A stretch of DNA of 64,000 nt from an uncultured Prevotellaceae bacterium (GTDB taxonomy: Bacteria; Bacteroidota; Bacteroidia; Bacteroidales; Bacteroidaceae): assembly GCA_947176895.1 (NCBI GenBank), contig CAMWSK010000001.1, positions 124,001 to 188,000 of the forward strand. Reading direction: 5' to 3'. The notes below the pieces were generated by a model. The model searched no databases. It was given only the letters and a program-made list of their open reading frames with translations, and was not told the DNA's origin. Every line of letters starts with the position of its first letter. Position 1 is the first letter of the stretch. A program made the position numbers and the translations under genes. This document shows, one piece after another, positions 2,634-52,250 of this stretch.

Positions 2634-4316
2634 ATGAAAAAGTATCTGTTTTTATTGACAACCCTCTTCGCCGGCCTGTTCACGGCCTGCACGGAAGAGG
2701 AGGGAGGATGCGACAGCTGCCTGATTCCTCCCGTCGAAGAACAACTGTTGCAGAACGGCTTTGCCGATGACGAGACCACCGGACAGGGATTCACCTTCAC
2801 CGCAGCCGGTGCCTGGCAAGCTACCGTGAACGAAGTGTACAGCCACTTGTCCCCCGCAGCCGCCATGCAGGCGAAGGCCGCCACACGCGCAGGCGAAAGC
2901 ATCGGCAACAATGTGGTGTGGCTCCGGCTCTACAACGGCAATTCCGAGGTCTATAGCGGCGGAGCAGGCGAAATCTCCCTGCGTATCGAGATGGACCAGA
3001 ACTACACGGGCGAGCGCCGCGAGGCCGCCATCACCGTCAAGTCGGGCAACAACGGCTTCATCATCTCTGTGGTACAGGAGGCCACCAAGCAGGACGGAAG
3101 CGAAAACGAGGCTCCCGTGAAAGTGACGGAAATCCGTCTGGACAAAGATGCCCTGACCCTGAAGACGGGCGAAAAGGCCACTCTCCGGGCCACGGTAATG
3201 CCCGAGGATGCCACCATCAAGTCCGTGATATGGACATGCCGCGACTCTACCGTGGCCAAGGTCAACCCCGTGAGCGGAGAGATCACCGCCCTGGGCGCAG
3301 GCACCACCATCGTCACGGCCACCTCCTCGTCCAACAAAGCCGTGTCGGCCTCCTGCCAGCTCACCGTGGAGGAAACCGACAGTCCCTCTCTGCCCGACTC
3401 CACCGCCACCGCCGACGCAAAAATCGCACGCATCGAGGTGACCCGGTGGTATAACAACGGCAGTTATACCGAAAACGACGGCAAAGAAACCATCGAGTTC
3501 TTCTATGATGAACAGGGACGGCTGGTGAAGATGGTGGCAGAAAGCGATGATGACGCTGTTGATGTTGTTGGTCCCATGCCCGGTGACTCTACCCGCCATG
3601 CCTGCAGAAAGATGCTCAAAAGCAGAAGAAGAGGTGTGGCCGCATCGGATTCCGTCACCTACGACCTTGACCGGAGTATCGCCAACATCACCTATGGCCG
3701 CGGAGAGGTTTCTTATGAAATCGTGGCCATCGAAGATGGAGAGGAATTGCCTTACAAAAGTAACGGACGGGCTACCCTGGACAACAACGGACGTGTGACA
3801 TCCGGCTCCGTCACCTACTACGAAGAAGAATACGGAGACAGCGGGCGCGTGGAATGGGTACCCGAAACCACCGGCTACAGACTTTCCTACAACGCCCTCG
3901 GACAGCTGACACGCGTCAACTCTGACGCGGACGGCATAGAGACCCTGACCTGGACAGACGGCAACCTCACGGCCTGCACCTGGGGCGACTCCGCCAACAT
4001 AGTGGATAGAGCCTATTATGGCAACTTGGCCAACAACCTCAACGTGGACATCAACTTCTTCGCATTGTTGAACGAGGCCGAAGGCTTCTGCTTTGCCACG
4101 GGAGACACTTTCAACGTGTTCGCACTGCTCGGCCTCACCGGCACTCGCACGAAGAACATGGTAGAGAGAGTGGTGGGCGGTTACTCGTATAGTGGCGAAA
4201 ACGAGTTTGAATACGTGGTGGAAGGCGGTCTGATCACCAAAATCATCACGTGGGAGACAACCTCCTATGCCGGCAGATACAAGGATGCCGAAATAACGAT
4301 TTCCTACCGGAACTAA
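2634..4316 (+). CDS. Surface lipoprotein with Ig-like (Big_2) and DUF4595-like domains
   Basis: The 560-residue protein starts with a lipoprotein signal ending in LFTAC, so Cys 19 is probably lipidated. Residues ~40-155 are beta-rich and resemble a BACON-type module. Residues ~161-247 form a clear Big_2 Ig-like domain (TEIRLDKDALTLKTGE to LTVEE). The C-terminal half contains short repeats such as FFYDEQGRLVKMV and LSYNALGQLTRV, typical of DUF4595 proteins of Bacteroidales and reminiscent of RHS/YD repeats. It probably sits on the cell surface and binds a glycan or protein; no catalytic residues are evident. A terminator follows the gene. Confidence 0.75.
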   Translation: MKKYLFLLTTLFAGLFTACTEEEGGCDSCLIPPVEEQLLQNGFADDETTGQGFTFTAAGAWQATVNEVYSHLSPAAAMQAKAATRAGESIGNNVVWLRLYNGNSEVYSGGAGEISLRIEMDQNYTGERREAAITVKSGNNGFIISVVQEATKQDGSENEAPVKVTEIRLDKDALTLKTGEKATLRATVMPEDATIKSVIWTCRDSTVAKVNPVSGEITALGAGTTIVTATSSSNKAVSASCQLTVEETDSPSLPDSTATADAKIARIEVTRWYNNGSYTENDGKETIEFFYDEQGRLVKMVAESDDDAVDVVGPMPGDSTRHACRKMLKSRRRGVAASDSVTYDLDRSIANITYGRGEVSYEIVAIEDGEELPYKSNGRATLDNNGRVTSGSVTYYEEEYGDSGRVEWVPETTGYRLSYNALGQLTRVNSDADGIETLTWTDGNLTACTWGDSANIVDRAYYGNLANNLNVDINFFALLNEAEGFCFATGDTFNVFALLGLTGTRTKNMVERVVGGYSYSGENEFEYVVEGGLITKIITWETTSYAGRYKDAEITISYRN

Positions 4317-4359: not shown

Positions 4360-4391
4360 AAGGGTGTGCCGAAAATTCGGCACACCCTTTT
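4360..4391 (+). terminator. Rho-independent terminator of the lipoprotein gene
   Basis: A 14-bp perfect inverted repeat (4360-4373 with 4376-4389) is followed by a short T-tract. It lies 43 bases after the stop of the lipoprotein gene. Confidence 0.75.
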
Positions 4392-4430
4392 CTTCATACC
4401 CGCCCGCAACAAGAAAAAAAGCATCGCCCC

Positions 4431-4530
4431 CTTGGGAAAAAACGCCGCGGCATGTTGATGAAAACGCCGCGGCGAATGAACGGAAACGCCGCGGCGAATA
4501 AGCCGATGCGCCGCAGCGTTTTTCCCAAGG
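4431..4530 (+). repeat. Intergenic palindromic array, four units, GC-core type (array A1)
   Basis: Four 10-bp cores start at 4443, 4465, 4487 and 4509, exactly 22 bases apart: CGCCGCGGCA, CGCCGCGGCG, CGCCGCGGCG and CGCCGCAGCG. Most are preceded by A-tracts. The array is bounded by an outer inverted repeat, CCTTGGGAAAAA at the left and TTTTTCCCAAGG at the right. It lies between two convergent genes and between their terminators. It has the same architecture as the arrays at 19823, 30126, 36391, 38612 and 52161. Function is unknown. Confidence 0.85.
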
Positions 4531-4548: not shown

Positions 4549-4588
4549 AAAAAAGGACGCGCCCGGAAGAAACGGACGCGTCCTTTTT
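4549..4588 (-). terminator. Bidirectional terminator, mainly for the OmpA gene
   Basis: A 12-bp inverted repeat (4550-4561 with 4577-4588) has an A-run on its left arm and a T-run on its right, so it can end transcripts from either side. It lies 24 bases after the end of the minus-strand OmpA gene. Confidence 0.75.
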
Positions 4589-19822: not shown

Positions 19823-19889
19823 CCCAAAACATCTTGATGTTTTTAAAAAACATGAGCATGTTTTTCAAAAACGTGTTCATGTTTTTGGG
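19823..19889 (+). repeat. Intergenic palindromic array, three units, AT-core type (array B1)
   Basis: Cores CATCTTGATG (19830), CATGAGCATG (19851) and CGTGTTCATG (19872) are 21 bases apart and each lies between an A-tract and a T-tract. The array is framed by CCCAAAA at the left and TTTTTGGG at the right. It lies between the convergent Rid-family and feo genes, downstream of the strong terminator, so it is unlikely to be a terminator itself. Confidence 0.85.
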
Positions 19890-30125: not shown

Positions 30126-30214
30126 CCCAAAAGCATGTGAATATTTTGGGAAAAACATGAGGATGTTTATCTAAAAACGTGTTCATGTTTTTCAAAAACG
30201 TCTTGATGTTTTTT
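30126..30214 (+). repeat. Intergenic palindromic array, four units, AT-core type (array B2)
   Basis: Cores start at 30134 (CATGTGAATA), 30156 (CATGAGGATG), 30178 (CGTGTTCATG) and 30199 (CGTCTTGATG), spaced 22, 22 and 21 bases, each between A-rich and T-rich tracts. It sits between the terminator of dprA and the terminator of frdB, so neither gene needs it for ending transcription. It is alignable end to end with the array at 38612. Confidence 0.85.
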
Positions 30215-30221
30215 CGCCAAT

Positions 30222-30260
30222 AAAAAGGCACCCCAAAAGCTTGTCCTGCTTTTGGGGTGC
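30222..30260 (-). terminator. Rho-independent terminator of the fumarate reductase operon
   Basis: A 13-bp perfect stem (30228-30240 with 30248-30260) is followed on the minus strand by a run of five T. It lies 30 bases after frdB. Confidence 0.85.
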
Positions 30261-36338: not shown

Positions 36339-36390
36339 TACTGCCTTCTTTCGGCTATTCTATTAAACCTGAGATTTGAGAGTTTTGACA

Positions 36391-36470
36391 AAACGCCGCA
36401 ATGAAAAAAAACGCCGCGATGAATGAGACAAAACACTGCGGCGTTTTTAAAAAACATCGCGGCGTTTTTT
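36391..36470 (+). repeat. Intergenic palindromic array, four units, hybrid cores (array A2)
   Basis: Cores start at 36394 (CGCCGCAATG), 36412 (CGCCGCGATG), 36434 (CACTGCGGCG) and 36455 (CATCGCGGCG), spaced 18, 22 and 21 bases, with A-tracts before and T-tracts after several of them. The second and fourth cores combine one GC-type half (CGCC or GGCG) with one AT-type half (GATG or CATC). The two left units and two right units are roughly inverted relative to each other. The array lies between apt and uvrC; the flanking 36471-36685 shows no promoter match. Confidence 0.85.
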
Positions 36471-38491: not shown

Positions 38492-38611
38492 TTCCCCCCT
38501 GCTCTATGCAGGCGAAAGAAAACCGCCAATTCCCATACCTATATTAACGTTAGTTTGATGATGCCACAATAAGGCTGACGATATGCCTAATTTCATTTTG
38601 TAGAGCATTCT

Positions 38612-38700
38612 AAATGCATGTGAATGTTTGGGGGAAAACATGTTCATCTTTTTGGAAAACATGTTCATGTTTTTCAAAAACGTCTTGATGTATTTTCGGG
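38612..38700 (+). repeat. Intergenic palindromic array, four units, AT-core type (array B3)
   Basis: Cores start at 38617 (CATGTGAATG), 38639 (CATGTTCATC), 38660 (CATGTTCATG) and 38681 (CGTCTTGATG), spaced 22, 21 and 21 bases. First and last units match those of the array at 30126 almost exactly. The 315-base gap between uvrC and dtd holds this array and the dtd promoter; the 120 bases after uvrC show nothing I can assign. Confidence 0.85.
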
Positions 38701-38767
38701 GACTTATGGACGGGATTTTACAGACAATTTAAGTTCATCGAACTCACGTTATATTAAAAGAATTGCA

Positions 38768-52160: not shown

Positions 52161-52250
52161 AAAAAACATGAACATATTTTTCAAAAACATGAACACGTTT
52201 TCCAAAAACATGAACATGTTTTGACCAAAAGATGAACATGTTTTTTTTCA
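52161..52250 (+). repeat. Intergenic palindromic array, four units, AT-core type (array B4)
   Basis: Cores start at 52167 (CATGAACATA), 52188 (CATGAACACG), 52209 (CATGAACATG) and 52231 (GATGAACATG), spaced 21, 21 and 22 bases, between A-tracts and T-tracts. All units have AA in the centre, so the array reads in one orientation. It ends 33 bases before the leuS -7 box, the only array this close to a promoter. Confidence 0.85.

Follow-up and report, generated by a model that had tools for sequence, protein, structure and literature searches.

The focal array and its surroundings

The window analysed here is a stretch of 64,000 nucleotides from an uncultured Prevotellaceae bacterium (genome G000, an assembly of 2.42 Mb in 53 contigs). 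Near its beginning, the gene of a 560-aa protein with a Big_2 domain (positions 2634 to 4316, + strand) converges with that of an OmpA-family protein (PF00691; 4613 to 5743, - strand). The 296-bp gap between them contains the focal array (4430 to 4530), composed of four palindromic units of a GC type, three forward and one reverse, at 22-nt spacing. Terminator-type hairpins occur on either side of it. The one at 4360 to 4389 (+ strand) resembles an ordinary terminator, belongs to the upstream gene and is distinct from the array; that at 4550 to 4588 (- strand) carries a T-run and is the probable terminator of the OmpA-like gene, missed by the terminator scanner. The array would therefore not be needed as a terminator. 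A second OmpA-like gene is found in the same genome (G000:C17:2143-2425). Its 3' part shares 80% DNA identity with the gene of the window and the match ends near the gene end. The species with the closest OmpA match carries a three-unit array AAAACATATACATGTTTT at 22-nt phase (G023:C65:2205-2290, locus L240), the unit of which is possibly a relative of the G000 unit.

The core sequence CGCCGCGGC occurs at 4443 to 4451, 4465 to 4473 and 4487 to 4495, and the reverse-oriented fourth core, CGCCGCAGC, differs by one mismatch (4509 to 4517). All steps are of 22 nt. An earlier note, made from the sequence, had described four nearly identical GC cores without deviation in spacing and framed by an inverted repeat. 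The cores and their steps are confirmed. The frame is an exact 12-nt inverted repeat, CCTTGGGAAAAA (4430 to 4441) and TTTTTCCCAAGG (4519 to 4530), starting one base before the position given in that note. Both the 22-nt phase and the inverted repeat exceed chance: the self-match score of the gap at lag 21/22 is 32, against a best value of 12 in 2000 dinucleotide-preserving shuffles, and 6 of 2000 shuffles contained a perfect inverted repeat of 12 nt within 120 nt.

The inner five bases of each arm (AAAAA, part of unit 1, and TTTTT, part of unit 4) are the ends of the outer units, so that the additional part is CCTTGGG/CCCAAGG alone. Many GC-type arrays run from forward to reverse units and often begin with A-runs and end with T-runs, an order that accounts for most of the focal frame. 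Within the scanned loci of G000, CCTTGGGAAAA was found once more, in a locus not read as an array (L074), and a similar CTTGGGAAAAA adjoins one array of another type, named CATG after its unit (L041). The frame was not found at the other GC-type arrays of these loci, and its reading as a shared terminal inverted repeat (TIR) was rejected. No target duplication is visible by eye at the focal array. The focal intergenic site was unmatched in 138 other genomes of the genus, at most four candidates per genome being scored. Besides the OmpA gene, the matches listed are short: they concern the terminator hairpin and other arrays of G000, plus a segment of another genome of the genus (G084:C183:51170-51226) in which 57 nt share 79% identity with the focal units. 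The GC-type unit may thus not be private to G000.

Arrays in the window and in the rest of the genome

Five further arrays were identified in the window, four of the CATG type (21-22 nt) and one of the GC type. Two CATG arrays lie in convergent gaps (19826 to 19886, three units at 21 nt; 30129 to 30213, four units) and one of four units in a gap that the gene caller shows as codirectional (52162 to 52245). The fourth (38633 to 38697) is contained in a MITE-like element of about 203 bp (38547 to 38749, - strand) with 16-bp TIRs, one arm having 3 mismatches, and is flanked by TATATTA direct repeats. The second GC-type array (36387 to 36469, codirectional gap) has four units spaced by 18, 22 and 21 nt, and the regularity claimed for the focal array does not extend to it. 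Convergent gaps hold three of the six arrays, gene calling being based on codon usage.

Hundreds of units are present in the genome, most of them grouped by three or four in intergenic arrays; the CATG type is dominant and is accompanied by the focal GC type. With up to three mismatches, G000 matches AAAACATGTTCATGTTTT 413 + 407 times on the two strands, compared with 1 + 1 for the control, and the GC half-unit has 27 exact strand matches with none in the control. The 51 CATG clusters in 544 kb of G000 comprise 22 three-unit, 16 four-unit and 2 two-unit arrays and 11 single units. Spacings between neighbouring CATG units, searched from 12 to 48 nt, are almost confined to 21 (62 of 94 pairs) and 22 nt (30), with one case each of 43 and 44. 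Of the 21 GC-type arrays in the fetched pieces (16 of which were chosen for that unit), nine have four units, two have five, four have three and six have two, and their spacings are 21-22 nt in 45 of 49 cases, 23 in three and 27 in one. This count called for a unit with no more than one mismatch and so leaves out the array at 36387 to 36469. Allowing two mismatches gives 36 groups with 52 of 66 spacings at 21-22 nt, several of the added pairs looking like chance. Lone units, compared with a reversed-motif control, number 19/22 in genome G012, 19/10 in genome G024 (two sister species treated below) and 11/2 in G000, supporting the view that units occur mainly in arrays. Stretches like GGCACCCCAAAAG, partly hairpins, were seen by eye to recur beside CATG units (L036, L088:6284 and window positions 30213 to 30250). 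They suggest mosaic composites like BIMEs.

Distribution and unit sequences

Arrays were sought in other genomes as intergenic regions of at least 60 bp in which self-match at lag 21-23 exceeds that at every lag from 5 to 19. The gene caller and the lag scan were home-made, with a lag threshold of 16 (14 for the scan of genus stretches, 18 for the dyad test below). Such arrays occupy 29 of 172 regions in G000, 29 of 153 in G012 and 38 of 148 in G024. They are found, with differing units, in 17 of 152 regions and 13 of 20 stretches from other species of the genus (20 species, at most 20 kb each), and in 50 of 608 regions and 33 of 80 loci from named genomes, mostly Bacteroidaceae, including one array in a locus titled Parabacteroides and one in a locus titled Paludibacter. 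Lag-22 arrays are also present among the sampled loci of Bacteroides cellulosilyticus and Xylanibacter ruminicola. Other Bacteroidales families gave 2 of 134 regions and 2 of 20 stretches, one being a long 22-nt array (L204). No shuffle gave a lag 21-23 hit. Plain lag 21-23 counts, which take in some 7- and 11-nt repeats, are 30 in G000, 22 in the genus, 57 in named genomes and 3 in other families; the contrast is preserved in the stricter counts given above. Further lags are frequent in the named set too, the largest with 26 of 608 regions and lags 14 and 18 with 16 each. Spacing in G012 is 22 nt in 52 of 53 cases, the other being 44, and in G024 in 72 of 77, the others being 43-44. An unusually long case is a stretch of about 300 bp with about 14 units at 22 nt, compared with the usual four, and with no significant dyad (L051:17409-17712, genome G001). 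The class is found mainly in Bacteroidaceae, a name that we take in the GTDB sense; its arrays share a period of about 22 nt and its palindromes are lineage-specific.

Allowing one mismatch, the G000 unit has 131 + 134 strand matches in its own genome and one each in 2 of the 138 other genomes; with two mismatches, 11 of 60 other genomes have any match, with at most four strand matches. Judged by these matches, the unit appears nearly private to G000. Another unit, AATGGTTAACCATT, is matched 419 times in G012, 377 times in G024 and 1-14 times in 19 other genomes (control 1-16), and units are thus common to at least one species pair. Three two-unit GGTTAACC arrays of this pair (L223:15631, L257:5652 and L251:499) are framed in phase by an inverted, non-palindromic CATCTACTGCCAAG, which restores a total of four units. 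The inverted match is 14, 12 and 12 of 14 positions in these arrays; in the remaining seven arrays of two units it is 3-9 of 14.

Comparison of two sister species

G012 and G024 share 62 reciprocal best proteins with a median identity of 96%, and the flanks of their shared arrays are 88-97% identical at the DNA level. They represent one species pair with a unit type other than the focal one. Among 23 G012 arrays, 10 have synteny in the fetched part of G024 and all 10 are occupied there, the other 13 being without synteny. In the reverse direction, 8 of 34 G024 arrays were located in G012 and occupied there, 24 lacked synteny and 2 lay at rearranged sites. The earlier note had named occupation everywhere with small unit changes and no empty site as the pattern opposed to its proposal, and for this other unit type that pattern is the one observed.

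Units changed at 17 of 504 positions (3.4%, a value somewhat lowered by the definition of units through likeness to the consensus), linkers at 26 of 208 (12.5%, similar to the flanks; p=1.5e-5) and flanks, which extend into genes, at 209 of 1949 (p=3e-8). Gene conversion between copies could also be a source of low unit divergence. No indel was found inside the arrays, compared with 6 in the flanks, a difference without statistical significance (p=0.35). In the single pair compared, these phase-locked, lineage-specific palindrome arrays are apparently under selection. Linkers of one array share 3.67 and 3.73 of 8 nt with each other, compared with 3.49 and 3.56 between arrays. They are about as unlike as linkers of different arrays, which makes recent local slippage unlikely, as the earlier note had also suggested. 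In one array (G012 C18 ~159585, L228 ~19586; G024 C26 ~54273), the 8-nt linker that joins units 1 and 2 appears by eye to be inverted between the species (attgccaa / ttggcaat), as if the palindrome centres had been joined by recombination or template switching.

Dyad symmetry and gene context

Dyad symmetry is significant (p<=0.05) in 24 of 24 G000 arrays, 12 of 15 genus arrays and 28 of 43 named arrays, and not significant in the other 3 genus and 15 named arrays. Paired half-site positions mostly vary independently, and there is in general no stem-like covariation. At pair 3-12 of G024, complementarity is rarer than in the shuffled data (32 of 111 versus 52.9), the two half-sites tending to differ, one being AAAGG and one AATGG. 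Exceptions that do covary are pair 8-11 in G000 (99 of 134 versus 82.8) and, slightly, pair 7-8 in G012 and G024, where 6 and 10 of 500 shuffles reach the observed value. The combination expected of an array of dimer-binding sites, conserved dyads with free linkers of fixed length, was found, partly on non-focal unit types, the conservation of length alone not being significant.

In a pool of 724 gaps of at least 120 bp from genomes other than G000, 130 carry arrays. After control for length and relative to codirectional gaps, convergent gaps are enriched (+0.78, 0.25 to 1.33) and divergent gaps depleted (-0.85, -1.41 to -0.27). Arrays in G000 occupy 10 of 22 convergent, 15 of 68 codirectional and 10 of 42 divergent gaps (convergent versus rest p=0.03), with no depletion of the divergent ones. 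Neither G024 (8/18, p=0.28) nor the 20-species set (5/16, p=0.06) shows a significant convergent bias. Many intergenic palindromes located preferentially downstream of genes, a REP/BIME character, are thus present in the pooled data, and the preference is weaker in G000 and G024 alone.

Interpretation of the arrays

The design common to the class is shown by these data: usually three or four short palindromes at 21-22 nt, corresponding to two turns of B-DNA, with linkers free in sequence and of near-fixed length. The best reading is that the arrays are REP/BIME-like extragenic elements that occur most often between converging genes and are putative binding sites for a dimeric DNA-binding protein. 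Slow unit change, free linkers, a fixed phase and little stem covariation fit double-stranded sites of a dimer. A fast-evolving DNA-binding protein would occupy each palindrome as a homodimer, and dimers on adjacent sites, placed on one face of the helix, would touch each other. The resulting complex may act as intergenic punctuation, a boundary for transcription or for the nucleoid, most often where genes converge. Dispersal within a genome would proceed by copying of whole arrays, some copies being carried in a MITE. We give a probability of roughly 0.55 to the reading of the focal array as a copy of this Bacteroidaceae-type class of phased palindromes, serving as dimer-bound intergenic punctuation and spread by whole-array copying.

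Three other explanations were weighed. The arrays could be remnants of the transposition of non-autonomous mobile elements (MITEs), with internal tandem repeats that bind a transposase and with no host role. An element of about 205 bp with the 16-bp TIR ACGTGAGTTCGATGAA indeed encloses some CATG arrays of G000 and TIR matches (up to three mismatches) number 53 forward + 49 reverse in this genome against 5 + 4 in the control. Direct repeats (TATATTA, TAGTTA, TATA and TA, the shortest perhaps by chance) flank 4 of the 5 best full-length copies, and the BrickBuilt element of Porphyromonas gingivalis is built to the same plan in the available part of its description (PMC4596501). The TIR is present on both sides of 5 of 40 multi-unit CATG arrays and on one side of 4. 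However, it is missing from the remaining 31 at up to four mismatches. By eye, GC arrays have no common ends and the flanks of G012 arrays are largely unique, and the syntenic sites of the sister species include no empty one. Inspection by eye of the places listed showed no two TIRs separated by the length of a full-length IS, and a full-length IS with this TIR was rejected on that inspection. The transposon reading holds for a minority of the relatives of the focal array, and as a general explanation it is unlikely. The proposal of the earlier note that the focal array was inserted or copied as a whole, like a small mobile element, is partly supported. The predominance of arrays over lone units and the CATG arrays enclosed by TIRs agree with it, while the focal frame, mostly mirrored ends of outer units, does not.

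Action of the units as RNA hairpins after transcription, in termination or in protection of mRNA 3' ends, would agree with the preference for convergent gaps and with the folding energies. The focal array folds at -59 and -62 kcal/mol on the two strands (z about -6), and the 7 folds tested, which come from 6 arrays, all lie well under the mean of the shuffles (z -3.3 to -7.3). Against this, compensatory change is mostly missing in the half-sites, RNA loops would have no need of a 21-22-nt phase, and the focal array already has a terminator-type hairpin on either side. Mirror-placed linkers are not complementary above control (3.0 versus 3.66 in G012, 3.31 versus 3.69 in G024), and a long RNA hairpin through them was rejected on this result. 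An RNA role is improbable. Spread as REP/BIME elements by a RAYT (Y1) transposase would account for the same distribution of short, lineage-specific intergenic palindromes in hundreds of copies with a preference for convergent gaps. Nevertheless, the Y1_Tnp profile (PF01797) has no match in G000, G012 or G024. It has no match in 18 of 24 other genus genomes, G012 and G024 included, and exceeds the family cut-off in four of the 24, these genomes being 61-92% complete. RAYT mobilisation was rejected on this basis and is very improbable.

Sites of a dimeric protein are preferred, and the comparison of the two sister species suggests that the putative DNA-binding protein, and not a jumping element alone, maintains the shape of the arrays. 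A wider proposal, which we put forward tentatively and hold to be less probable than the reading of the focal array, is that Bacteroidaceae possess a system of arrays extending over the chromosome, with a dimeric protein that evolves fast and co-evolves with lineage-specific palindromes, the two-turn phase being the main invariant and converging genes the preferred location. Such a system might be a bacterial parallel to the co-evolution of satellites and their recognition proteins. If the reading as dimer-bound arrays is correct, a major group of gut bacteria would carry a selected class of intergenic elements whose invariant is geometry and not sequence, and which similarity searches would for that reason miss. 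It would also offer a clean assay, change of linker length versus change of linker sequence, a route to the rapidly evolving putative protein, and a wider frame for BrickBuilt.

Comparison with known systems

The window has no Rfam match at gathering thresholds. Units of 14-18 nt with 3-8-nt linkers presumably do not suit a CRISPR array. Iterons and operator arrays are bound by dimeric DNA-binding proteins and combine a two-turn phase with conserved boxes and free linkers. Unlike them, the arrays described here are dispersed over many chromosomal sites, and the protein bound to them is putative. Among the titles and abstract openings of the open-licence papers listed no description of such arrays in Bacteroidaceae was found; they may be described elsewhere.

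In the available part of the literature, REP/BIME elements and REPINs are likewise short extragenic palindromes in hundreds of lineage-specific copies, with convergent and codirectional gaps preferred (PMC3733652). The present arrays differ from REP/BIME, as described there, by their 21-22-nt phase, by having mostly up to four units, and by a GTAG/CGTC tag not being apparent by eye.

BrickBuilt is described, in the available part of its report, as a minisatellite-MITE of P. gingivalis with 19 copies, 23-nt repeats, up to 22.8 repeats per element and 0-6% indels within elements (PMC4596501). Like the present arrays, it belongs to Bacteroidales, is intergenic and consists of tandem repeats of about two helix turns, and in both systems part of the copies have a leader and a tail that end in small inverted repeats, whether complete or partial. 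As far as that account extends (PMC4596501), the arrays described here differ in their hundreds of units, in arrays mostly of up to four units, in the lack of a TIR at most CATG arrays and in the lack of any indel within the 10 arrays shared by the two sister species.
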